From assembly GCA_024278345.1 (NCBI GenBank), contig JAJRTK010000288.1:1-11620 (forward strand): a DNA stretch of 11,620 bases, given 5' to 3'. The stretch comes from a bacterium (lineage in GTDB: Bacteria > CSSED10-310 > JAJRTK01). Shown here one piece after another: positions 96 through 11,111 of this stretch. A model generated the notes under the pieces. It had not been told where the DNA came from. It saw only the letters and a list, made by a program, of their open reading frames with translations, and ran no database searches. Both the position numbers and the translations under genes were made by a program. Every line of letters begins with the position of its first letter. The stretch's first letter is position 1.

Positions 96-533
96 GGCGG
101 CGTCTGAAATCTGCACCGTGGCCGGTACTATGACCAAGGCCTCGAACTTCTTTCCGGGAAATCCGCCATACTGGCAGGGTGGAGCCGTCGGCCTCGGTCA
201 TCGTCTCGGACGCCCAGTGAATTCCGGGCAACAGCGCCAGGGCTTCTGGCCCCCGAACCCGGGGGAGGCTCCGGCTATCGCCTGCGGGGATGTTGGGGTT
301 AGGCGAACCTGACCGGGCTGGAAATCGCACTCCGGCTATCGCCCGCGGGGATGTCGGTCGCGGTCTCGCTGCCGCTCGGCGCATGGACCTCGCAAGGGAG
401 TGCGCTCCCTGGATCAGCCAAAAGATGCTTGGAGCTTCTCCAAATGCTGTTGGCAGCGTGGAACTGGTATCATCGGGAGGAGTTTACACCAGGCGGTCCC
501 GGGAAGTAAGAAAGTCTGGTGGCACTCCGGAAA
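96..533. other. Intergenic region without a convincing gene, rich in isolated hairpins
   Basis: No reading frame here resembles a family I recognise. Apart from the direct-repeat pair listed separately, it holds several perfect hairpins: CCCCCG/CGGGGG at 250-265 with a 4-nt loop, AGGGAG/CTCCCT at 395-410 with loop TGCG, and TTGGAG/CTCCAA at 429-443 with loop CTT. The 395-412 hairpin matches the first hairpin of the window (1-18) except in the loop. The region may be a relic of mobile or repetitive DNA, which is inference. Confidence 0.5.
269..357. repeat. Pair of 28-nt direct repeats, 61 bp apart (CRISPR-like spacing)
   Basis: The copies at 269-296 and 330-357 match at 26 of 28 positions. 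Both begin CTCCGGCTATCGCC and both contain GCGGGGATGT or its one-base variant. Each can fold as ATCGCC/GGGGAT (one internal G-G mismatch) around a 3-nt loop, and one of the two differences lies in that loop. The 33-nt gap between the copies is unrelated in sequence to the repeats. A 28-nt partly dyad repeat with a 61-bp period is what type I-E-like CRISPR units look like. However, only two copies exist, positions 61 bp further out on either side show no convincing copy, and no cas gene is in the window. It could be a decayed mini-array or a chance duplication. Confidence 0.6.
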
Positions 534-590
534 AATGGCGAGTAGCGGGCGTCGGCTGGCGCCCGATGGGAGCGGAAGGCAGCACAAAAA
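534..590 (-). repeat. Dispersed intergenic hairpin repeat, copy A
   Basis: Read on the minus strand, this has a T-rich lead-in (positions 590-586), then TTCCGCTCCCATCG, then a perfect stem CGGGCG/CGCCCG around an 8-nt loop (+ strand 546-551 and 560-565), then a CTACTCGCCATT tail. Three other intergenic copies occur in the window (7566-7621, 10700-10758, 10831-10893). The core before the stem is nearly constant, whereas the stem bases differ between copies but still pair. It lies upstream of the phosphatidyltransferase gene, in reverse orientation to it. Confidence 0.7.
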
Positions 591-635
591 GGGAAAAGGG
601 GTACCTGAAAAACCACGCCCTAAAATGGAGAGCAT

Positions 636-652
636 GGCCGAAAGTCTCGGCC
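636..652. other. Small perfect hairpin upstream of the first operon
   Basis: GGCCGA and TCGGCC pair perfectly around a 5-nt loop. No T-tract follows, so it is not a typical intrinsic terminator. It lies about 120 bp before the first gene of the operon. Any role in a leader transcript is speculative. Confidence 0.35.
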
Positions 653-749
653 CATGATGCGTCGTCAAGCGAAGTCACCGCACCAACAATCCTCCTGCTT
701 GCTCCTTTTCGCAACGGAAAGATTGGTCAGGTGGTGGCTCGCTTTTTTG

Positions 750-758
750 TGCTAGAAT
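750..758 (+). promoter_or_regulatory. Possible extended -10 promoter element
   Basis: TG-C-TAGAAT at 750-758 fits an extended -10 (TGnTATAAT with one mismatch). No good -35 lies at the proper distance; the nearest candidate, TTGGTC at 723, is about 24 bp upstream, which is too far. Transcription would begin near 765, leaving almost no leader before ATG 770 and cutting into the AAGGA at 759-763. If this promoter is real, translation is either leaderless or starts at the in-frame ATG at 794. Confidence 0.3.
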
Positions 759-769
759 AAGGATCGGGG

Positions 770-1384
770 ATGGAAATCGGAAAGTTGGAGGCGATGTCAG
801 AATCGGCGGTCTACACGATGAGGGAAGAGCGCATTTCGGAGGCCCCCTGGTGGAGGCGCGACATCTGGACGCTGGCGAACGCCATCACTGCCATCAAGAT
901 TCCTCTGGCAGTCCTTTTTCCCATTGTCGGAACCGGCTGGCGATCAGAGCTCGCGATCCTGTTTATTGCGGGCATATCTGACATTCTCGATGGTTGGATC
1001 GCTCGAAAAATGGGGCAGTCGCACGGCTTCGGGATGATTCTCGACCCCATTTGTGACAAGCTCTTCCTGATGACTGTTGTTGGGACGTTCCTTTTCGACG
1101 GCCGGCTTGGACCAGGAGCGCTCCTGGTTGTGACGCTCCGGGATCTCTACGTGCTTGTGGCATCAGGTTTCTTGTTCGCCACGGGCCGTTGGCGGGAGTG
1201 CAGTTTCCAAGCGCGTTTTTTCGGGAAGCTCACGACTTTTCTTCAGTTCGCGCTCTTGGCGCTAGTGGTCCTGGAAGCGCCAATCTGGTTCATGCTTGGG
1301 CCGGTGCTTGTCGTTTCGCTTTTGGCCTGTCTGGACTACTCCCGTGCCCCGATGCGCAAGGCGAAAATGGAGAACCGAGTTTGA
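770..1384 (+). CDS. CDP-alcohol phosphatidyltransferase family protein (PgsA-like)
   Basis: This is an integral membrane enzyme that transfers a phosphatidyl group from CDP-diacylglycerol to an alcohol, a step in phospholipid synthesis. The family signature D-x2-D-G-x2-A-R-x8-G-x3-D-x3-D is complete: D71, D74, G75, A78, R79, G88, D92 and D96. These acidic residues bind the metal and the CDP group. Several hydrophobic segments lie around and after the motif. At 204 aa the length suits PgsA or a cardiolipin-synthase-type member. The acceptor (glycerol 3-phosphate or other) cannot be read from the sequence, so no symbol is given. ATG 770 has AAGGA 6 nt upstream; ATG 794 is an alternative start that would remove 8 residues. 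The stop overlaps the TTG start of the next gene by 4 nt, which indicates translational coupling. Confidence 0.9.
   Translation: MEIGKLEAMSESAVYTMREERISEAPWWRRDIWTLANAITAIKIPLAVLFPIVGTGWRSELAILFIAGISDILDGWIARKMGQSHGFGMILDPICDKLFLMTVVGTFLFDGRLGPGALLVVTLRDLYVLVASGFLFATGRWRECSFQARFFGKLTTFLQFALLALVVLEAPIWFMLGPVLVVSLLACLDYSRAPMRKAKMENRV
1369..1373 (+). promoter_or_regulatory. Ribosome binding site fixing a TTG start at 1381
   Basis: GGAGA is followed by a 7-nt spacer and TTG 1381, whose TTGA overlaps the stop of the upstream gene. This is the main reason for placing the GspF-like start here rather than about 190 nt further upstream inside the phosphatidyltransferase gene. Confidence 0.7.
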
Positions 1385-2328
1385 ATGTAAAGACGAGGAT
1401 CTTGTTTTATGCGCAGTTGGGTCGGCTTTTGGATGCGGGCACACCGCTTCAGGGCGCGCTTCGCTTTCTTGAGAAACACCAGGAGCATGCCTATGGCAGC
1501 CTCTGCGGTGCTCTTGGGCAGGCCATCGAAAGCGGGAAAAGCCTCGGTGAAGCCCTGAAAAACGAGGCTCGACTCCCGCCGATACACTGCCGGCTTTTGG
1601 CCTTCGCCGAACAGGCGGGTCGCCTTCCTCAGACGTTGAGCAACATCCGAAGGTGGGACGAAAGGGAACTGAAATTCAGGCGGGAGTTGACCTCAAAGGC
1701 GATCTACCCAACTTTCGTTCTAGTGGCGGCCATCGTCTTGCCACCACTGGCAATTCTTGTGACCAATGGATTGGCGGCATACCTGGAATCCGTTCTCTTC
1801 CCCCTCTTGATTATCGGTGGCGCTGTTGCTTTCCTGGCAGTCGTAAACTGGGCGTTTCCCAGTTTGGCAGCAACCATAGGAAACCAGGTGCCCATTCTCT
1901 CCACCATCCGCCGCCGAGCCGCCGGAAGCACGTTTCTTCGCGCTTTGGGAATGGGCTTGGAATCGGGATTGGGACTGGTGGAGGCATTAGATGGGGCAGC
2001 GGAAAGCGCTGGATCGCAAGAACTTGTCCGGCACGGCCGCAGATGCCGCGATGACGCGATGTCTGGTGGATTCGCCCTGGATCGATTGGCGGTATCCCGA
2101 CTCTTTGGTGATTTCGGGTCTCAAATCCTGCGAACGGGGGATGTCACGGGAAACCTGGGAGACGCCTGCCTCAAAGCCGCGGCACTCTTGGAGGAGGATG
2201 CGGGCCGGATGGTCAAGCAGGCCATTGGTGTCGGAACGGCACTCGTCTACGGAACGGTGGCTTTGGTGGTGGCGATAACGGTGATCCAGTTTTTTCGAAA
2301 TCTCTACTCGGCCCTGCCAATTCCATGA
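1381..2328 (+). CDS. GspF/PilC-like inner-membrane platform protein, short form
   Basis: The protein has two T2SSF-type cytoplasmic domains, roughly residues 7-105 and 175-280. Transmembrane segments lie near 109-128, 139-158 and 282-304. The first domain opens with FYAQLGRLLDAGTPL and the second with FLRALGMGLESGLGLVEAL, the usual helical pattern of the family. GspF and PilC form the membrane platform on which the type II secretion or type IV pilus ATPase acts. At 315 aa it is well below the roughly 400 aa of canonical members, mainly because it lacks their longer N-terminal region. No ATPase, pseudopilin, secretin or peptidase gene is nearby, so it is an orphan here. The TTG start overlaps the previous gene, and the stop overlaps the next gene in an ATGA arrangement. 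A role in a reduced pilus or secretion machine is inference. Confidence 0.85.
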   Translation: MNVKTRILFYAQLGRLLDAGTPLQGALRFLEKHQEHAYGSLCGALGQAIESGKSLGEALKNEARLPPIHCRLLAFAEQAGRLPQTLSNIRRWDERELKFRRELTSKAIYPTFVLVAAIVLPPLAILVTNGLAAYLESVLFPLLIIGGAVAFLAVVNWAFPSLAATIGNQVPILSTIRRRAAGSTFLRALGMGLESGLGLVEALDGAAESAGSQELVRHGRRCRDDAMSGGFALDRLAVSRLFGDFGSQILRTGDVTGNLGDACLKAAALLEEDAGRMVKQAIGVGTALVYGTVALVVAITVIQFFRNLYSALPIP

Positions 2329-3410
2329 AAAGATTGCTCTTGTTGAGCCTCGTCGCGGGATGGGGGGGCCTCGGGCTTGCTTATACGGCGCCGGATATTG
2401 AAGCGGACAGGCTGATGACCCGCGGGCTGCAACTCCTTTACGAGGCGGATTATGGAGAGGCCGAGCGCTTTTTCTTGGAGGAGTCTGCCAAGGACCCTGA
2501 AGAGCCTCTCCCTTGGGTAGGGCTTCTTTTCCTCTACCATCTGCAAATGTATGAGGTCGATGACCTTTCCAGGATCAAGGAGTTCAAGGCTGCCTTGGGC
2601 GTGGCACGACGGCTTGCCAAACGGAAAGTCACAGTGCGCGGAAGCGGTTGGGATTCAATGATCGAGGGTGCTGTTCAAGGAATGTCCGCCCTTTTGGAGG
2701 CTCGGCAGGAACACTGGATTTCTGCCGTAAGAAAGGGGCTACGCGCCAAAAAGAGTCTGAAAGTGGCACTTTCGGCGGACCCGGAGCTTTGGGACTGCTA
2801 CCTTGGAATTGGGGCGATTGACTACTTTGGATCGGTGGCCACCAAGGACTTCTGGATTCTCCCCGGTTTTTCGGATCAGCGGCGAAGGGGCAGGGAGGCA
2901 GTGGAATTGGCCCGCGCCCGCGCCTCTTACGTCAGGCCATTGTCAGAGTTCGTTCTGCTCTACATCTATTATGAAGAGAAGGAGTTCGAGTCAGCTCTGG
3001 CATTGGCGCATTCTCTTGAGTCCAGGTATCCAGGGAATGCTTTGGCGATGAGCTGGGTTGGTTGGCTCAGCCGTCGGCAGGGGGAATTTTCCAGCTATCT
3101 CGACGCCTTTGAAAGAGTCGCTGGCCTGGGTGAAAACCGGTTTCATTCCCTTTACAATATGGGTTACGCCCGATATTTGGCCGGCGGTGATCTTGACCTG
3201 GCGAAGCGGAATCTCCGTGCATTTTTGGCGGCAGGTCCTTCGGCGCGCTGGCAAGCCCGGGCCTACTATCGCATGTCGCTAATACACGAGCGACAGGGCC
3301 GTCCAGCGTCGGCTCGTCGAGCGCTCCTCGCAGCTACTTACATCGATCCTGGGTACGCTCCGGCAAAGCGGCGGCTCCAACGCCATGGTCGAATGCGTCC
3401 CAAAGAATAG
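2325..3410 (+). CDS. Secreted tetratricopeptide-repeat protein, Iml2/TPR39-like
   Basis: The 361-aa product starts with a signal peptide (MKRLLLLSLVAGWGGLGLAY, cleavage near residue 20-22), so it probably acts in the periplasm or at the outer membrane. The remainder is helical TPR-type sequence: an N-terminal repeat around residues 28-60 (GLQLLYEADYGEAERFF) and several C-terminal repeats from about 205 to 350. The middle stretch LGIGAIDYFGSV followed by ILPGFSDQRRRGREAVELA resembles bacterial relatives of the Iml2/TPR39 group, where a short helical pair with a 'P-G-D-x-x-x-G' turn precedes the repeats; that match is from memory. It overlaps the GspF-like gene by 4 nt and may be a scaffold for the same envelope machinery. 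Its precise function is unknown. Confidence 0.8.
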   Translation: MKRLLLLSLVAGWGGLGLAYTAPDIEADRLMTRGLQLLYEADYGEAERFFLEESAKDPEEPLPWVGLLFLYHLQMYEVDDLSRIKEFKAALGVARRLAKRKVTVRGSGWDSMIEGAVQGMSALLEARQEHWISAVRKGLRAKKSLKVALSADPELWDCYLGIGAIDYFGSVATKDFWILPGFSDQRRRGREAVELARARASYVRPLSEFVLLYIYYEEKEFESALALAHSLESRYPGNALAMSWVGWLSRRQGEFSSYLDAFERVAGLGENRFHSLYNMGYARYLAGGDLDLAKRNLRAFLAAGPSARWQARAYYRMSLIHERQGRPASARRALLAATYIDPGYAPAKRRLQRHGRMRPKE

Positions 3411-3456
3411 ACACGGCAGGCTGAAAACCAAGAGTCTGGAGGTTTCTTCTGTTGTC

Positions 3457-3486
3457 TTGACAATGTGAGGATGATTTGGTTAGCGT
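3457..3486 (+). promoter_or_regulatory. Candidate sigma-70 promoter for topA
   Basis: A perfect -35 TTGACA (3457-3462) is followed after 18 bp by TAGCGT (3481-3486), which matches the -10 consensus at only 3 of 6 positions. It lies in the gap after the TPR gene and 105 bp before the TTG start of topA, suggesting topA can be transcribed separately from the upstream operon. Confidence 0.35.
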
Positions 3487-3579
3487 CCCGTTTCGCTGTG
3501 GGATTGAAGGGCCGTGGGTTCCTTTGCGCTTTTCTCAGCCTCTGTTTTTGGGGCATTTTCAGTTCGACTCAACTGGTTT

Positions 3580-3583
3580 GGAG
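3580..3583 (+). promoter_or_regulatory. Ribosome binding site fixing the topA TTG start
   Basis: GGAG followed by a 7-nt spacer precedes TTG 3591. Starting there puts the catalytic glutamate at residue 9, as in E. coli TopA, whereas the in-frame GTG at 3465 adds 42 residues foreign to the family. Confidence 0.7.
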
Positions 3584-3590
3584 CATTTCC

Positions 3591-5870
3591 TTGAAAAAGT
3601 CTCTCGTCGTGGTCGAATCGCCTGCGAAGGCGAAGACGATCAACAAATTCTTGGGCAAGGAATATATTGTCGCGGCCTCGGTGGGGCATGTTCGTGACTT
3701 GCCGAAATCGAAGTTGGGCGTCGATCTGGAGCATGGGTTCAAGCCGCAGTACGTCCGATTGCCGAAAAAAGGGAAAGTCTTGCGGGAGCTCCGCAACCAC
3801 GCTGCCCAGTGCGATGCCGTCTACCTTGCGCTGGACCCCGATAGAGAGGGAGAGGCCATTGCGTGGCATATCGCCGAGGAGCTGAAGGAAACCAACTCAA
3901 ACATCTATCGCGTTCTGTTCTATGAGATCACTCGGTCGGCTGTGCGTGATGCCATCGACAAGAAGCGAGAGATCGATCTGGACAAGGTCAACGCTCAGCA
4001 GGCGCGGCGGATCATGGACAGGCTGATGGGTTACAAGATTAGCCCGTTCCTTTGGTCCAAGGTCCGGCGAGGTCTTTCGGCCGGGCGGGTCCAGTCTGTT
4101 GCTCTTCGCCTGATTTGTGATCGGGAACGGGAGGTTCGTGCGTTCGAGCCGGAGGAATACTGGACGGTCCACGCGGACTTGCTGGGGTCGGGCAAACCAC
4201 TGTTTGCAGCGGAGTTCCACGGAGTTGGAGGGAAGAAGTCGAAATTGTCGCGCGAGGCTGCCGCCCAGGAGATCGAGAAGAAGATTCAAGGTCGTGATTG
4301 GGTCTTGGCCGGGATTGAGAAAAAGAAACGGCAGCAAAAACCGAAGCCCCCTTTCATCACGTCAACTCTCCAGCAGGATGCATCGCGGCGGCTCCGACTG
4401 CCGGCCTCCAAGACCATGCGAATTGCCCAGGAGCTCTACGAGGGGGTTTCGGTTGGGGACGAAGGCCTCGTAGGGCTGATTACGTACATGAGAACGGATT
4501 CTACGAGGCTTTCCAGCGAATCTGTCCAGGAGGTCCGGAAGTACGTTGTCGAAAACTTTGGCGAGGAGTACATTCCGAAAAAGCCCCATCTCTACGCCAA
4601 GAGCAAAAAAGCTCAGGATGCCCATGAAGCGATCCGCCCCACTTCGGTGGCTCGAACTCCGGCTTCATTGCGCGGCTGTCTGACGGCGGAGCAGCACCGG
4701 CTTTACAAACTGGTTTGGGAGCGGTTTGTAGCCTGCCAGATGGCGTCCGCTCGCATGAGCCTCACTCGATTTGACATTGCGGTGGGGGAAGTGGAGTTTC
4801 GTGCCACAGGCTCGATTGTGGATTTTCCGGGCCACCTCAAGCTCTACAAGCCCGATGAAGGGGATCCGGAGAAGAAGGACGCCGGTGGCAACGCCAAGGA
4901 CCGTCTTTTGCCGGCGCTTCAGAAGGGTGAGGTCCTCGACCTCAAGAAGTTGGAGAAGAAGCAGCACTTCACGCAGCCCCCTCCTAGGTTCAACGAAGCG
5001 AGCCTCATCCGGGAGCTGGAAAAGCAGGGGATCGGGAGACCGTCCACCTACGCGACGATCCTCAGCAAGATCCAGGATCGGAAATACACCGCAAGGCTCG
5101 ACCACACCTTTGCTCCCACCGAGCTTGGCTTCGTGGTGAGCGACATGCTGGTGGAGCATTTTGCCGATGTCGTCAACGTCGGGTTTACGGCGGCCCTTGA
5201 AGAGAAACTGGACCAGGTGGAGGAGGGAAAGTTGGATTGGGCTGATCTGGTGGGCTCCTTTTACCGTCCCTTTGCCGCTGACCTGGAACGGGCGAATCAG
5301 AGGGCGGGGAAGGTGGATACAAAGCTCGAGGAGACCGATATACCATGCGATAAGTGCCAGACTCACATGGTGATCAAGCTTGGAAGAAATGGCGAGTTCC
5401 TGGCTTGCCCGCGCTACCCGGAGTGTAGAGGCACTCGAAACTTCAAACGGGATGCCCAGGGCAAGATCGTCGTGGAAAAGCCGGTTATCCTTGAGGAAAA
5501 ATGTCCCGACTGTGGCGCGGAGCTCGGGGTCAAATCTTCCAGAGGAAGCAGGTTCATCGGTTGCACGGGCTATCCGGAGTGTAAATTCACGCGCCCCTTC
5601 ACCCTGGATGTCCCATGTCCGAAAGAGGACTGCAAGGGGGAACTCGCGGAGAAGAGGACCCGGAGAGGACGGACCTTCTACGGCTGTTCCACCTATCCAA
5701 AATGTGAGTTCACGACCTGGCAAAAACCGCTTCCAAAGCCGTGCCCACAATGTTCTCACCCCTTCTTGGTGGAGAAGACCACCAAAAGAAAGGGGCTCCA
5801 GCACCGCTGTCCCAAAAAGGAATGTGGCTATGAGGTTCAGGTGGATGAAGCTCAGCCCGTTGGAGCCTGA
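3591..5870 (+). CDS. topA: DNA topoisomerase I (type IA)
   Basis: TopA relaxes negative supercoils by cutting and passing single strands. The TOPRIM domain carries E9 in VVVESPAKAK and the metal-binding DPDREGE at D82, D84 and E86. The active-site tyrosine is Y299 in LITYMRTDST. The downstream motif RELEKQGIGRPSTYATI is typical of the family. The C-terminus contains four tetracysteine zinc ribbons between about residues 586 and 745 (first C586, C589, C606, C612; last C718, C721, C740, C745). E. coli TopA has three classical ones. The length is 759 aa from TTG 3591. The hydrophobic stretch encoded between 3465 and 3590 is not part of the family fold and is treated as leader DNA. It is followed 87 nt later by xerC and then hslV, a conserved gene order in several phyla. 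Confidence 0.97.
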   Translation: MKKSLVVVESPAKAKTINKFLGKEYIVAASVGHVRDLPKSKLGVDLEHGFKPQYVRLPKKGKVLRELRNHAAQCDAVYLALDPDREGEAIAWHIAEELKETNSNIYRVLFYEITRSAVRDAIDKKREIDLDKVNAQQARRIMDRLMGYKISPFLWSKVRRGLSAGRVQSVALRLICDREREVRAFEPEEYWTVHADLLGSGKPLFAAEFHGVGGKKSKLSREAAAQEIEKKIQGRDWVLAGIEKKKRQQKPKPPFITSTLQQDASRRLRLPASKTMRIAQELYEGVSVGDEGLVGLITYMRTDSTRLSSESVQEVRKYVVENFGEEYIPKKPHLYAKSKKAQDAHEAIRPTSVARTPASLRGCLTAEQHRLYKLVWERFVACQMASARMSLTRFDIAVGEVEFRATGSIVDFPGHLKLYKPDEGDPEKKDAGGNAKDRLLPALQKGEVLDLKKLEKKQHFTQPPPRFNEASLIRELEKQGIGRPSTYATILSKIQDRKYTARLDHTFAPTELGFVVSDMLVEHFADVVNVGFTAALEEKLDQVEEGKLDWADLVGSFYRPFAADLERANQRAGKVDTKLEETDIPCDKCQTHMVIKLGRNGEFLACPRYPECRGTRNFKRDAQGKIVVEKPVILEEKCPDCGAELGVKSSRGSRFIGCTGYPECKFTRPFTLDVPCPKEDCKGELAEKRTRRGRTFYGCSTYPKCEFTTWQKPLPKPCPQCSHPFLVEKTTKRKGLQHRCPKKECGYEVQVDEAQPVGA

Positions 5871-5957
5871 TGGCGGGTGGCCCTGGTTTGGTGAGGCTTG
5901 GCCTCTATTCCGCGGGTGGGCTGTGAAGGGCCTCCCTCGACCTCCGCTGGAGAGGCG

Positions 5958-6989
5958 ATGAAGGAGCGAGGTAAGAAGCTGGGTCCAGAGTCCCTCGTCC
6001 CTGGCTCGCTGGAGGCGGCCAATGAAGAGTTATTGAGGCCATTTGCCGATGCTCTTCGCTACCAACGGGGGCTCCAGCCTTCCACCATCGAGACCTACTT
6101 GCGGGACCTCGGGGACTATGCGGGTTTCCTTGATCGTTTGAGTGGGCGTCTTTCCATCCGCCTCACTCTTCGGGACGCCGATCGCAAGGCGGTTCGCGCC
6201 TATCTGGCGGAGCTCCACCGTTTGGGGCGTTCTCCCAGGACCGTCGCTCGCCGACTTTCTTCTCTTCGGGCCTACTACCGCTATTTGGTTTCCAGGGGGC
6301 AGTTGGAGGTTTCTCCGCTTCAGGGGATTCATGCCCCGCGCCAGGGCAAGCGGTTGCCCGATTTTCTCAGTGTGGAGGAAGTGTTGGGGTTGCTCCGTGG
6401 CGCCCAGGAAGGGAGCGAGCTTACCCATACTCGGTCTCGGGCCGTGCTGGGTCTCCTCTATTCCGGCGGAATGCGAGTCGCCGAATTGGCGGGTTTGGAT
6501 CTCGAAGATCTGGAGATCCAGGCTGGGCGTGTGACAGTTCTGGGCAAGGGTGGCAAGGAGCGGATTTGTTTCGTCGCCAAATCGGTGCTCAAGGTCGTGA
6601 AAGATTATCTATCCACCTGGTCTTCCATTCGAGCCAAAGCCGGATACCCATCTGACGGGGGGCCGTTGATCTTGAACAGGCGCGGTGGGCGCCTAACGAC
6701 TCGCGGCCTCCATCGAGTGGTGAGTCAAACCGCCGTGCTGCTGGGGCTTCCCAGGAATGTTTATCCTCACATGCTCCGCCATAGTTTTGCCACTCATCTG
6801 TTAGATAGTGGCGCCGACCTTCGCTCTATCCAGGAACTGCTGGGACACGAGTCCCTGGCCGCCACCCAACTCTACACCCACGTTTCCGTTGAAAGACTGC
6901 TTGCTGAATACCATCGTGCCCATCCCCGTGACGAGGCCGATCCCGTTCCACGCCTTCCCGTGGACGGTAACCGGAAGGATGACCCCTAA
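5958..6989 (+). CDS. xerC: Site-specific tyrosine recombinase XerC
   Basis: Xer recombinases resolve chromosome dimers at dif, usually as a XerC/XerD pair. The N-terminal SAM-like core-binding domain spans about residues 20-115 ([17 protein letters not shown]). The catalytic domain has the full set: R173 in GGMRVAEL, K197 in GKGGKER, H271 and R274 in HMLRH, H297 in LGHES, and the nucleophile Y306 in LYTHV. The 343-aa length is above the usual ~300 because of about 18 extra N-terminal residues and about 25 charged C-terminal ones. ATG 5958 is chosen because GGAG lies 5 nt upstream; an in-frame TTG at 5898 has no usable ribosome site. XerC rather than XerD is inferred from the topA-xerC-hslV order. 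The stop overlaps hslV by one base (TAATG). Confidence 0.93.
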
Positions 6990-7561
6990 TGGACGAGCGC
7001 CCCAGATTTCAAGCGACAACCATTCTGTCTGTTCGCCGAGGCCAAGAGGTGGCCATTGGCGGAGACGGCCAGGTGAGCCTCAGCGGCAACATTGTGGTCA
7101 AACGGACGGCGAACAAGCTCCGCACTCTGGAGAATGGCCGGATTCTGGCCGGGTTTGCCGGTTCCGCAGCCGATGCTTTCACCCTTTTCGCCCGGTTCGA
7201 GGAAAAGCTTCGAAGCCACGGAGGCAATCTCCTTCGCGCAGCCGTGGAGCTGGCCAAGGAGTGGCGTACCGACAAGATCCTCCAGCGGTTGGAGGCGATG
7301 CTCGTTCTGGTGGACGAGAGCATTTCACTCCTGGTGGCCGGGTCGGGGGAGATCATCGAGCCCGACGATGGTATTCTGGCCATCGGCTCAGGCGGGATGT
7401 TTGCCAGGGCTGCCGCCACCGCTCTCTTGCGTCATACTGACCTCAGCGCCAAGGATATCGTTCGCCAGTCCCTTGATATCGCCGCGGATATTTGCGTTTA
7501 TACGAACCACGAGATCCGCATTCTGGAGCTCGGTTCCCCAAAACCAGGAAACGATGCCTGA
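6989..7561 (+). CDS. hslV: ATP-dependent protease subunit HslV (ClpQ)
   Basis: HslV is the proteasome-like peptidase that forms a double hexamer and works with the HslU ATPase on misfolded proteins in the cytoplasm. The nucleophile is T10 in ATTILSVRR, exposed by removal of a nine-residue propeptide. D26 in GGDGQ corresponds to mature Asp17, and K43 aligns with the conserved Lys33 region. The stretches [24 protein letters not shown] and [13 protein letters not shown] match the family closely, and the 190-aa length is normal. The start overlaps the xerC stop by one base, so the two are co-translated. No hslU follows: the next gene, after 122 bp, is an unrelated secreted protein, so HslU must be encoded elsewhere or be absent. 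Confidence 0.96.
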
Positions 7562-7565
7562 TCTC

Positions 7566-7621
7566 CTTTCGTGTTGCCTTCCGCTCCCGTCGCCGGCAGT
7601 CCGTCCGTCGCCGCTCGCCAG
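7566..7621 (+). repeat. Dispersed intergenic hairpin repeat, copy B
   Basis: It begins five bases after the hslV stop. The T-rich lead-in and TTCCGCTCCCGTCG core are followed by CGCCGG, loop CAGTCCGT and CCGTCG (7591-7610), a stem with one mismatched pair. The loop is identical to that of copy D, and the CGCTCGCCA tail is also shared. It lies exactly where hslU would be expected, at a break in the usual gene order. Confidence 0.75.
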
Positions 7622-7672
7622 CTTCCCGGTGGATCCGGGGCATTATGGAAAGATGGATCATCATTCTGGGTA

Positions 7673-7676
7673 GGAG
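7673..7676 (+). promoter_or_regulatory. Ribosome binding site fixing the GWxTD gene TTG start
   Basis: GGAG plus a 7-nt spacer leads to TTG 7684, the same arrangement as at the GspF-like gene and topA. The resulting N-terminus is a textbook signal peptide, whereas the upstream ATG 7645 has no clear ribosome site and would put a long charged stretch before it. Confidence 0.65.
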
Positions 7677-7683
7677 TAGAATC

Positions 7684-9897
7684 TTGTTGCGGAATCTGGC
7701 TGTGTCCCTTGGTTTTTGGTGCTGCCTCTGCCTTCTTTTCCCTCTGCCGGAAGGGTTAGCGCAGGATCCGATTGTGGAACAGGAGCTCCAATGGCTCGAG
7801 CTAGTGGAGTACATTATGAGCCCGGTGGAGCTGGAGGTCTTCCAGCGGCTCACTCACCGGGAACGGAAGGCCTTCGTCAAGGCTTTTTGGAAGGCTCGGG
7901 ATCCCATCCCTTCCACGGAGATCAACGAGTTCGAGATCGAGCACCGGCGGCGGGTCAAATACGCCGACGACAAGCTTGGCTGGGAGACTCCCAGGCGAGG
8001 CTCCAAGAGCGAACGTGGTTGGGCCTATATTGCCCTGGGACCCCCTCACGCCGTCTACGAGTATCCCGGAAAGATGCAGCTTTACCCAACGGAAGTTTGG
8101 TATTATACCGGCCAGGCTTCCCGTGGATTGCCGTCCGACTTCTACTTGCTCTTCTGCCGGTTCAACGGCATAGGTGAATTCAAGCTCTACGACCCGCAGG
8201 CTGACGGCCCCAGCAGACTCGTGCCCCAGGCCGTGAACCGTTTCATGAAGCCGGGCCAGGTGATGCGGGTCCTCCGGAGCATCGACATGGCCGTGGCCCG
8301 GGCGTCCCTGGCCGTCGATCTTTCAAGTCCCCACGATTACTATAACGGGATTCCCTGGAGCCGGGCTTCGGAGCAGTTGGCCATCATCCGGGGCACACCG
8401 CTGCGAACCGCGCCGGACGGCTACGCCAGACGGTGGGACGAGCTCCAGGGAGAGGTGCGGACGGAGGCGTCGTTCGACCTGTTTTCCATGCCCGTCACCA
8501 TGGCTTTGTTTCGCGGGCCTGACGGGGATCGTTTCCTTTACTATGCCCTGGAGGTTCCGCCGGAGAGGATCGTTGTGGAGGAAGCGAAGCGCCGTTTCTA
8601 CCTGGCGCTGGAGGCCTATCTGTCCCTGGTGGATTCGGAAGCGGAGGAGGTGGGAACCTTGGAAGAGAAAGCGGAGGGCCGGATCGGGGCCGACGATCTC
8701 GAGGTTCTGGGCCAGTCGGCTCTCCAGCTTTGGGGAGTTGCCGCTGCTTCGCGGGAGGTTCGGGGAGCTCGGAGTGTGGTGAGACAGTCACTCACACGGG
8801 CCGTCGGCAGGGCCTCAAGCCTTTTGCAGCCGATCCCGGATCCTTCCACCGACAAGATTGCCCTGTCCGAGCCGATCCTGGGCTATCTGCGCCAGGATGC
8901 GGTTTCCGGGAAAAAAGGCCACAAGGTTCCGGAGGCGACTTCCCGGAAGAGCCTTCACCTCCGAGGCCACGGGATCGCTCCGAAAGAGGGCGAGCCGGGC
9001 TGTGCCGAGCCGCTCCTGGGACCGGGGACTCTCTGGCCGGCGCCGGGAAAGATCGATCTGGGGGACGGCATAGGACTCTATCTCCAGCTTTATGGACCAC
9101 CCGGCACCGAACTGCCCGACGGCGGACAGATCCGGTTGTCTCTGCGCCCGGAAGATGGCGAATCCAGTGGTTCTCCGGTCTGGTCGGCCGTGCTCCCGAT
9201 CTTGGGTGGTTTTTGTCCCGGCGGATTGATAGAAGTGGTGGCGGATCTGCCGCTGGGCGAGGTTCAAGCAGGGAAATACCTCTTTCGCGCCGACTTCTCG
9301 GCTTCCGGAAAAGAGAGTCTTGCGGTTTCCAAGAGATCGGTCGATCTCGCGGTCCCGGGTCCCAATCGGCGCTGGGCTATCGGGTTCCAGAAAAAACCCC
9401 TCGATCATTACAGTTACCGCCTGATACGGGCGCGTCAGCTTCGGCAATCCGGGCACGAGGCGCGTGCGGTGACGGAGCTTGAAAAGGTCCTGGCGGCAGT
9501 GCCGGACCACAAGGGGGCTCTCCGGGAGCTGGCCATGCTGCTTCTTCAGCTCAAGCGGCCAAAGGAAGTGGCACGTTGGATGGGGGATCGTGCCGCCGGG
9601 GCCCTGTTGACGACGGGGTCCCTGCCAGCGGATGATGTGGGCCTCCTGGCCCTGGCAGCCGCGGCTCAGGTGATGCTCGGAGATTTCAGCCGCGCCGAGC
9701 AAATCTACGCCCGGGCGGTTTCCGCCGGCCCTGCACCGCCTCGCCTCCTCAATGCCCTGGCAGCGACCCAGCAGGCCCAGGGAAAGCTAGACCTTGCGGC
9801 AAAGCACTACCGTCTTTCCCTGGAAAGGGACTCCAAACAGCCCAGGATCCAACGGCTCCTGGAAAAAATCCGGAAAGGCAGGTCAAAAGGACCTTGA
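7684..9897 (+). CDS. Secreted GWxTD-domain protein with C-terminal TPR region
   Basis: The 737-aa product begins with a signal peptide: MLRN, a hydrophobic core to residue 21, then LPEGLA with cleavage likely after A26. There is no lipobox. Residues about 28-190 match the GWxTD domain: YIMSPVELEVF, a helix with FVKAFWKARDPIPSTEINEF, LGWETP at 98-103 and GWAYIALGPPHAVYEYP. This domain is of unknown function and is known from Acidobacteriota, Bacteroidota and relatives. Residues 190-575 are a long mixed region I cannot assign. Residues from about 580 to 730 look like TPR units (LRQSGHEARAVTELEKVLAAVPDHKGAL). Many family members are shorter. TTG 7684 is preferred because of GGAG 7 nt upstream; ATG 7645 is the alternative. 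mtgA follows 62 nt later, suggesting an envelope role. Confidence 0.85.
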   Translation: MLRNLAVSLGFWCCLCLLFPLPEGLAQDPIVEQELQWLELVEYIMSPVELEVFQRLTHRERKAFVKAFWKARDPIPSTEINEFEIEHRRRVKYADDKLGWETPRRGSKSERGWAYIALGPPHAVYEYPGKMQLYPTEVWYYTGQASRGLPSDFYLLFCRFNGIGEFKLYDPQADGPSRLVPQAVNRFMKPGQVMRVLRSIDMAVARASLAVDLSSPHDYYNGIPWSRASEQLAIIRGTPLRTAPDGYARRWDELQGEVRTEASFDLFSMPVTMALFRGPDGDRFLYYALEVPPERIVVEEAKRRFYLALEAYLSLVDSEAEEVGTLEEKAEGRIGADDLEVLGQSALQLWGVAAASREVRGARSVVRQSLTRAVGRASSLLQPIPDPSTDKIALSEPILGYLRQDAVSGKKGHKVPEATSRKSLHLRGHGIAPKEGEPGCAEPLLGPGTLWPAPGKIDLGDGIGLYLQLYGPPGTELPDGGQIRLSLRPEDGESSGSPVWSAVLPILGGFCPGGLIEVVADLPLGEVQAGKYLFRADFSASGKESLAVSKRSVDLAVPGPNRRWAIGFQKKPLDHYSYRLIRARQLRQSGHEARAVTELEKVLAAVPDHKGALRELAMLLLQLKRPKEVARWMGDRAAGALLTTGSLPADDVGLLALAAAAQVMLGDFSRAEQIYARAVSAGPAPPRLLNALAATQQAQGKLDLAAKHYRLSLERDSKQPRIQRLLEKIRKGRSKGP

Positions 9898-9900
9898 TGG

Positions 9901-9917
9901 TCCGCCCGCTTCGCGGA
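9901..9917. other. Short hairpin after the GWxTD gene
   Basis: TCCGC and GCGGA pair around 7 nt just after the stop codon; CCGC/GCGG with a 3-nt loop is an alternative fold. A CTTTTC stretch lies about 8 bases further on. It is too weak for a confident intrinsic terminator and may only attenuate transcription into mtgA. Confidence 0.3.
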
Positions 9918-9950
9918 ACGCGATCTTTTCCGATAGCTTGATAAACGGTT

Positions 9951-9955
9951 GGAGG
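9951..9955 (+). promoter_or_regulatory. Ribosome binding site for the mtgA TTG start
   Basis: GGAGG with a 4-nt spacer precedes TTG 9960. In-frame TGA and TAA codons at 9939-9944 exclude any start further upstream, so TTG 9960 is the first available start. Confidence 0.65.
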
Positions 9956-9959
9956 CGCC

Positions 9960-10643
9960 TTGCCAGTTTGGGTTATCAGACATCTCATCGTCCTTTTCAT
10001 CTCGCCCCAGATACCGTGGCAGATCGATGCTTTGAGGCATCGTTTTCCAACGCGGACCGCCTTGATGGCTCAGCGTCTCCGTGAGGCCGGCGGGGCCTTG
10101 GAGATTCAATACGATCCCGTGCGGCTGAGCCAGGTTCCGCGTTTATTGCAGCGAGCCGTGGTCTTGGCGGAGGATTCGGCCTTTTTCCAGCATGGGGGCC
10201 TGGATCTCCGGCAGATTCGGGAGGCGATGCTTGTGAACATTGCCCATGGTCGGATCGTTCGGGGGGCAAGCACGCTGACGCAGCAATTGGCGAAGAATCT
10301 CTTCTTGCGTCCGGACCGATCAGTTCGCCGAAAACTACAAGAGGCGCTCATCGCCCTCTATATGGAGCGGCGGCTGAGCAAGAAGAGGATCCTGGAACTC
10401 TATCTCAACGTCATAGAGTGGGGTCCCGGAGTCTTTGGTATCGATCCAGCAGCTCGGTGGCATTTTCGGTGTACAGCCCGGGAATTGGATGCCGAGGAAA
10501 TAGCGCTCTTGGTGGCCGCGATTCCCAGTCCTCGCCGATGGACTCCGAGGAACCCCAGTCCGTGGCTCACGGCGCGAAGTAACCAGATTTTGGGGATGCT
10601 GGAGAAGGATGGATCTCTGGAGCCTGGCAGCGTGGGCTGGTAG
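9960..10643 (+). CDS. mtgA: Monofunctional biosynthetic peptidoglycan transglycosylase (GT51)
   Basis: This enzyme polymerises lipid II into glycan strands at the outer face of the inner membrane and has no transpeptidase domain. All GT51 motifs are visible: EDSAFFQHGG with the catalytic E71, RGASTLTQQLAKNLFL (101-116), RRKLQEALIA with the second glutamate E128 (57 residues on, as in PBP1b and the Aquifex enzyme), KKRILELYLN, and GVFGIDPAARWHF. The 227 aa are near the family norm, but the N-terminal membrane anchor is short (about residues 3-19, VWVIRHLIVLFISPQIP). The TTG start is forced by upstream stops. It lies 62 nt after the GWxTD gene and is probably in the same transcript. Confidence 0.93.
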   Translation: MPVWVIRHLIVLFISPQIPWQIDALRHRFPTRTALMAQRLREAGGALEIQYDPVRLSQVPRLLQRAVVLAEDSAFFQHGGLDLRQIREAMLVNIAHGRIVRGASTLTQQLAKNLFLRPDRSVRRKLQEALIALYMERRLSKKRILELYLNVIEWGPGVFGIDPAARWHFRCTARELDAEEIALLVAAIPSPRRWTPRNPSPWLTARSNQILGMLEKDGSLEPGSVGW

Positions 10644-10699
10644 GGGTCCCAGGGCTCGTTCGGCGACTTCCGCTGGTGGGTCATCGTTGAGGCGAGGGG

Positions 10700-10758
10700 T
10701 GGATAGGGGCGACCAGCGTGAGCGGCCGCGAACGATGGGAGCGGAACGCGACAAAAAA
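10700..10758 (-). repeat. Dispersed intergenic hairpin repeat, copy C
   Basis: Read on the minus strand it has a run of six T, then TTCCGCTCCCATCG exactly as in copy A, then the stem region GCGACC/GGCCGC (+ strand 10709-10714 and 10724-10729; five of six pairs) around 9 nt. It is the most diverged copy beyond the core. It forms an inverted pair with copy D, the two hairpin ends pointing outward. Confidence 0.65.
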
Positions 10759-10830
10759 GAGAGAATACCAGGTTCGAAGGATGCTTGATCGTGCTCTTCG
10801 CCCAGGGCGCAGCTTTCGGTCAACCCTTTG

Positions 10831-10893
10831 TTTTCTATGTGTTACGTTCCGCTCATATCGGCGGCAGTCCGTCCGCCGCTGTTCGCCATCATC
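10831..10893 (+). repeat. Dispersed intergenic hairpin repeat, copy D
   Basis: The T-rich lead-in and TTCCGCTCATATCG core run into a perfect stem CGGCGG/CCGCCG with loop CAGTCCGT (10859-10878), then the tail GTTCGCCATCAT. It is the best match to copy B over the loop and tail. About 72 bp separate its start from copy C, giving a unit of roughly 190 bp. Confidence 0.75.
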
Positions 10894-11111
10894 GCCGCTC
10901 TCACTCTCCACTGCCCTAAGGCCCAAGCACCACCGGCTTTTTTGCTTGAGGGCTTCCGGGGCTCTTTTGGGGCAAGCTTTCCCTTCTTAGCCGCTGAGCT
11001 GAGCCTTGGGAGGCGGTCACTTTGGGCGCTTGGCTTGTGATGCCCTTGGGATGGGGGCTTTGGAACCGGTTTTGCCTTGGGAGGCCGTGCGCCTTTTCTT
11101 TTGTCGCGGAG

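Follow-up and report, generated by a model that had tools for sequence, protein, structure and literature searches.

What kind of element is a hairpin repeat that keeps the pairing of its stem while the stem bases change, and by what means has it spread between genes? The question is raised by four copies in the window analysed here, a stretch of 11,620 bp in which the genes between positions 770 and 10643 encode, in order, a CDP-alcohol phosphatidyltransferase, a GspF/PilC-like protein, a TPR protein, TopA, a XerC-like protein, HslV, a GWxTD-TPR protein and MtgA. The best named match to TopA comes from a Nitrospinota MAG and shares 54% identity, so the lineage is remote from named genomes. 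The four copies listed in the preliminary description were found at their positions and strands, aligned with each other over about 55 bp, and lay outside predicted genes as described. By themselves these four copies would be weak evidence for a family: the window had five core matches at up to three mismatches, compared with 2.15 expected.

The hairpin unit and its family

In the whole source genome (6.06 Mb, 550 contigs), the 14-base core TTCCGCTCCCATCG had 726 near-matches with two or fewer mismatches, compared with 51 for the reversed control, so the further copies on which the claim of a dispersed family depended do exist. A profile HMM detected 190 copies (E < 1e-3) in 1.58 Mb from 113 contigs of the same genome, a copy density slightly inflated because part of these contigs had been picked for holding a copy. 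From these two counts, we infer about 650-750 copies in the whole genome. In a first set of 148 copies, only 13 had more than half of their length in predicted genes, compared with 82% of random sites, when genes were predicted with a simple purpose-made codon-model caller rather than a published one; more than 90% of the tested copies lay between genes. Frequent copies within genes with non-pairing stems, which would have spoken against the family, were not found.

The unit of about 55 bp consists of a T-rich tract, GTTG, TTCCGCTCCCRTCG, a hairpin of varying sequence and CGCYRCTCGCC, which on the opposite strand reads GGCGA-GYRG-hairpin-CGAYGGGAGCGGAACSCAAC-A-rich. In the window, copy 1 (537..591, minus strand) has a 6-bp stem, CGGGCG/CGCCCG, and scored 68.1 bits (E 2.3e-19) in the covariance model; copy 4 (10833..10887, plus strand) has the stem CGGCGG/CCGCCG and scored 66.3 bits (E 8.1e-19). 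Copy 2 (7565..7619, plus strand; 62.8 bits, E 9.9e-18) starts 3 bp past the hslV stop codon. Copy 3 (10708..10760, minus strand; 33.1 bits, E 1.8e-8) has a stem in which 3 bp and 2 bp are separated by a conserved 2x2 internal mismatch. Thus, the 6-bp stem that the preliminary description placed at the same position in all four copies holds for copies 1, 2 and 4; because copy 3 belongs to the 14-nt mismatch subfamily, the pairing quoted for it (GCGACC/GGCCGC) lies off the family stem position.

Covariation was scored on a same-length alignment of 44 copies with the named structure. Stem positions paired in 90.5% of cells, compared with 78.9% after shuffling, but most changes were subfamily-defining swaps of C-G for G-C, and the independent stem events are therefore fewer than the cells counted. 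The covariation score was 0.208, compared with 0.050 for shuffled alignments, and none of 500 shuffles reached it, confirming that the stem stays paired despite its base changes. Both-sided changes occurred in four of the six stem pairs, and shifting the stem partner by 1-3 columns abolished the signal. Where the arms are 14 or 15 nt apart, the subfamilies keep a 2x2 or 1x1 site unpaired within the stem. RNAalifold found no pairs in the mixed-length alignment, because subfamilies of 14-17 nt misalign, and DNA folding of single copies gave z values from -1.9 to +0.5.

A hairpin with secondary structure near a T-rich tract might suggest an intrinsic terminator, an attC site, a CRISPR repeat or another named short repeat. 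However, in this unit the T-tract precedes the conserved arm on its 5' side, some 20-30 nt away from the stem, and relative to genes the copies point either way. No attC-like inverse core was seen by eye, the copies are usually kilobases apart with no cassette arrays, and the repeat matched no family in an Rfam scan at gathering thresholds. We regard a named short repeat of this sort as highly improbable.

The covariance model built from the copies found at least 150 copies in the source genome but only 0-2 marginal matches, with E no better than 1e-3, in each of seven phylum relatives. A scan of 84,980 GTDB species, each represented by one genome and possibly not including the source genome, gave no match to the exact pattern of the repeat. 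The family appears to be lineage-restricted.

Other repeats were noticed in the window. Positions 1-141 hold a further G+C-rich repeat with several hairpins (AGGGAGCTGGCTCCCT..GGAGGCAGAGCCTCC..), itself present in many copies: it was seen at 84-100% identity on over 25 of the contigs sampled, often exactly at contig ends, where it seems to break the assembly. The stretch 187-276 is inverted to this repeat, and a 28-bp direct repeat, CTCCGGCTATCGCCYGCGGGGATGT, occurs at 269-296 and 330-357, 61 bp apart.

Core-only copies, a MITE and a probable insertion sequence with the same end

About 42 of 196 copies (about 20%) have flanks of a MITE of 145-149 bp with inverted ends GGTsGTGCTC / GAGCACCACC, the shared stretch being 145-150 bp in wider alignments. 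In 33 elements, the left and right flanking octamers had an identity of 0.64, compared with 0.37 for shuffled pairs (maximum 0.44); the likeness was found at length 8 only, and 14 of the 33 matched at seven or more of eight positions. One MITE is inserted in another repeat, six homologues of which are uninterrupted with the expected short overlap, as for an empty site. This subset of copies consists of MITEs with exact 8-bp target duplications.

Two of the four window copies lie within this second element. Around copy 1, an extended alignment showed a decayed MITE of about 148 bp at 492..639 (minus strand), with its left end GGCCATGCTC near 639 and its right end GACCGCC near 492, both placed by eye; the left-flank score was 35, compared with 25 for the 99th percentile of the null. 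Around copy 4, a 148-bp MITE occupies 10787..10934 (plus strand), with left end GATCGTGCTC and right end AAGCACCACC, also placed by eye; over 130-150 bp, it is up to 92% identical to MITE copies on other contigs. The octamers flanking it, GGATGCTT and GGCTTTTT, agree at five of eight positions and are perhaps a decayed target duplication. Copies 2 and 3 are core-only, with the flank scores of copy 2 at background. The four copies are therefore not a single kind of insertion, as the preliminary description had treated them.

The other 154 of the 196 copies have no MITE flanks. Pairs of core-only copies were about 0.9-0.99 identical over 41 nt, loop included, a value inflated by picking the pairs for core identity, and beyond -20 and about +55 the same pairs fell to nearly background identity (about 0.26-0.3). 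The core boundary is sharp, and near-identical 41-mers with background sequence within about 20 nt on either side indicate that the core is a unit by itself.

Could all copies nevertheless be one MITE family, in which the core-only copies are old MITEs that have lost their flanks to decay, the hairpin core being retained by host selection, for example as a protein site or an RNA element? Some copies, such as those on contigs C3 and C439, still have decayed MITE ends and target-like octamers, and the core-only copies share a weak right-side signal with the MITEs (mean right-side score 15.3 compared with 12.8, p 1.5e-19). However, the left flanks of the 154 core-only copies score like random intergenic DNA (p 0.63), near-identical 41-mers with random sequence 20 nt outside are incompatible with uniform decay, and the copies lack the preference for gene direction that an RNA function would lead one to expect. 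We consider a single MITE family unlikely.

Three contigs (C156, C187 and C549; loci L216, L217 and L218) stop 112-135 bp inside an element that starts with GGTGGTGCTCTACCCCTAGGGCA and shares the right end of the MITE, followed by promoter-like sequence and an ATG. The end sequence is GGTGGTGCTCTA (also quoted as GGTGGTGCTCTACCCC) and the open reading frame starts MPSSKCEPREGEFQRWQPP; the interior was not assembled. These contig ends are probably the end of a multi-copy insertion sequence. A search for diverged full copies of the insertion sequence returned contig ends and deletion derivatives only, L225 being a deletion derivative with 12-bp inverted ends. A search for an IS91-type (Y2) transposase behind the insertion sequence end gave no match, with the controls equally silent.

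In its size of 145-149 bp, short terminal inverted repeats, 8-bp target duplications and the presence in the genome of a probable insertion sequence with the same end, the element resembles bacterial MITEs of the ERIC, NEMIS/Correia, RUP and Nezha type. Unlike these, its interior holds a REP-like unit that is found by itself about four times as often, and no description of a REP-carrying MITE was found in the literature searched. A MITE variant of 167-172 bp (for example L191, L195, L197, L206 and L209) has a longer hairpin, GGTTCGACCCGCGCCTGTGGCGCGAGTTCCCCGCGGCGCC, in place of the core hairpin.

A RAYT-like gene and the comparison with REPs

One Y1 transposase-like gene was detected in the source genome (C390:22510-23235, corresponding to 1012-1737 of locus L045; 241 aa). 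Its best family was NF047646, REP-associated tyrosine transposase, at 67.2 bits, which is below the NCBIfam cut-off of 80, and it scored 30.1 bits, over the cut-off, for PF01797. Its HVH and YIENNP stretches align weakly (E 0.0021) with the E. coli TnpAREP structure 4er8. The gene lies between inverted copies of the repeat, an arrangement that the preliminary description had suggested looking for, but one copy (C390:21204-21258, plus strand) is 1.25 kb upstream and the other (C390:23210-23264, minus strand), which overlaps the 3' end of the gene, is diverged (E 1.3e-4 in a search of 72.5 kb). Fourteen other Y1-transposase loci, from other genomes, had no significant copy of the repeat. A different palindromic repeat, GGGACCTATCAGGTCCGGTTGACAAG, flanks the RAYT-like gene at either end (at about 865 and 2030 of locus L045), is also present in several MITE flanks and elsewhere, and could instead be the gene's own partner.

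REPs associated with RAYT (TnpAREP) have a GTAG tag 5' of the hairpin, with degenerate forms such as GYRG described, and form subfamilies with alternative complementary stem bases, some with mid-stem mismatches (PMC3733652, PMC2817692, PMC6006769). TnpAREP cleaves and recombines REP strands in vitro (PMC8266576). The present repeat shares with the GTAG-tagged REPs the hundreds of intergenic copies, the hairpin subfamilies with alternative complementary stem bases, the mid-stem mismatches and, in part, a degenerate tag on the 5' side of the hairpin and a RAYT-like gene with inverted copies around it, one of them diverged. In 91 of about 149 core-only copies (61%), the four bases at the hairpin foot read GYRG (GTGG in 39, GCAG in 24, GTAG in 21 and GCGG in 7), with GT[AG]G in about 40%. 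The repeat differs from the GTAG-tagged REPs in that about 40% of its copies have a tag outside GYRG, that a 14-nt conserved arm and an A/T-rich tract stretch the unit to about 55 bp, that the upstream copy is 1.25 kb from the RAYT-like gene, and that no relative was found among the phylum genomes searched. A conserved 14-base arm and a T-rich tract are unusual in REPs.

The repeat has the properties by which REPs are recognised in being short, extragenic and present in more than 100 copies, and in forming a palindromic stem-loop with alternative complementary bases. Tight inverted pairs or clusters, as in BIMEs and REPINs, were almost absent, with one pair within 300 bp among 158 copies. Its hairpins are arranged in inversion as in REPINs and BIMEs, but here such neighbours are mostly separated by 1-3 kb holding one to three genes instead of lying side by side. 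Judged by its sequence, the repeat seems to behave as a REP does, but it has only part of these properties, and we therefore call the family REP-like. The REP-type dispersed hairpin family of the preliminary description is supported by copy number, intergenic position, covarying stem, GYRG tag and RAYT-like gene between inverted copies; membership among the REPs proper is weakened by the degenerate tag, the lack of tight clusters, the RAYT-like protein scoring below the curated cut-off and the long conserved 3' arm.

Our verdict is that the repeat represents a new, lineage-restricted REP-like family, partly captured by a MITE. As the fuller explanation, we favour, with moderate confidence, a non-autonomous hairpin element of about 55 bp spread via a RAYT-type Y1 transposase, with part of the copies captured by the MITE. 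Most likely, the repeat would have spread through intergenic DNA as a single strand recognised by a RAYT-type Y1 (HUH) transposase, for which the reverse strand offers a GYRG tag 5' of an imperfect hairpin whose pairing, rather than sequence, is kept; the gene at C390 would encode the protein that moves the core. Part of the family would then have been captured by the MITE, an unrelated element of 145-149 bp whose inverted ends read GGTsGTGCTC and which has 8-bp target duplications, and that MITE would be moved by the insertion sequence with the same end, presumably through a DDE transposase. In this order of events, which we infer, the core would have entered the MITE. As the repeat occurs both alone and inside the MITE, one repeat apparently has two routes of spreading.

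Orientation of neighbouring copies

Among neighbours less than 3 kb apart on the contigs read, 35 were in opposite and 4 in the same orientation (p 3e-7); for core-only neighbours, 21 were inverted and 1 direct. With random intergenic placement and gaps weighted equally, same-orientation neighbours were depleted (4 seen, about 20 expected) and opposite neighbours at 1.5-3 kb were in excess (25 seen, 12 expected). The inverted pairs enclose one to three genes in either direction. On further contigs with incomplete position lists, the bias was weaker (11 opposite and 5 same below 3 kb, p 0.21), and several same-orientation pairs in this set include a MITE copy.

Gene direction did not explain the alternation, paired copies were no more alike than random copies, and the enclosed DNA had ordinary G+C. 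Orientation was weakly associated with local GC skew (p 0.001).

Together with the intergenic position, the covarying stem and the conserved 14-mer, the alternation along the chromosome might point to a host-functional element, such as a nucleoid or protein binding site or an mRNA end element, that is not mobile, was slowly amplified and is under selection. However, the repeat is missing, apart from marginal matches, from the seven phylum relatives and from the scan of GTDB species, unlike a conserved host site, and has no link to gene direction; we judge a host function of this kind very unlikely. The simplest idea for the alternation is that DNA between direct copies gets lost, through slippage or the action of a Y1 transposase, although such loss alone would not account for the excess of inverted pairs. 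A possible but rather doubtful view is that the alternation is a footprint of active excision, in which segments flanked by direct copies within about 3 kb of each other are removed, in the way expected of a Y1 transposase acting between two ends on a shared exposed single strand, so that the remaining neighbours would be inverted and bracket one to three genes.

To our knowledge, little about the spread of REPs in living cells has been proven so far. A hairpin unit that has spread in two distinguishable ways, apparently alone and as a MITE passenger, gives one genome its own controls for where insertions end, which targets they use and how old they are. Alternation of orientation that is confined to short distances is a quantitative signature, open to testing in other genomes that are rich in REPs and well sequenced, and it could expose a deletion process between direct copies.
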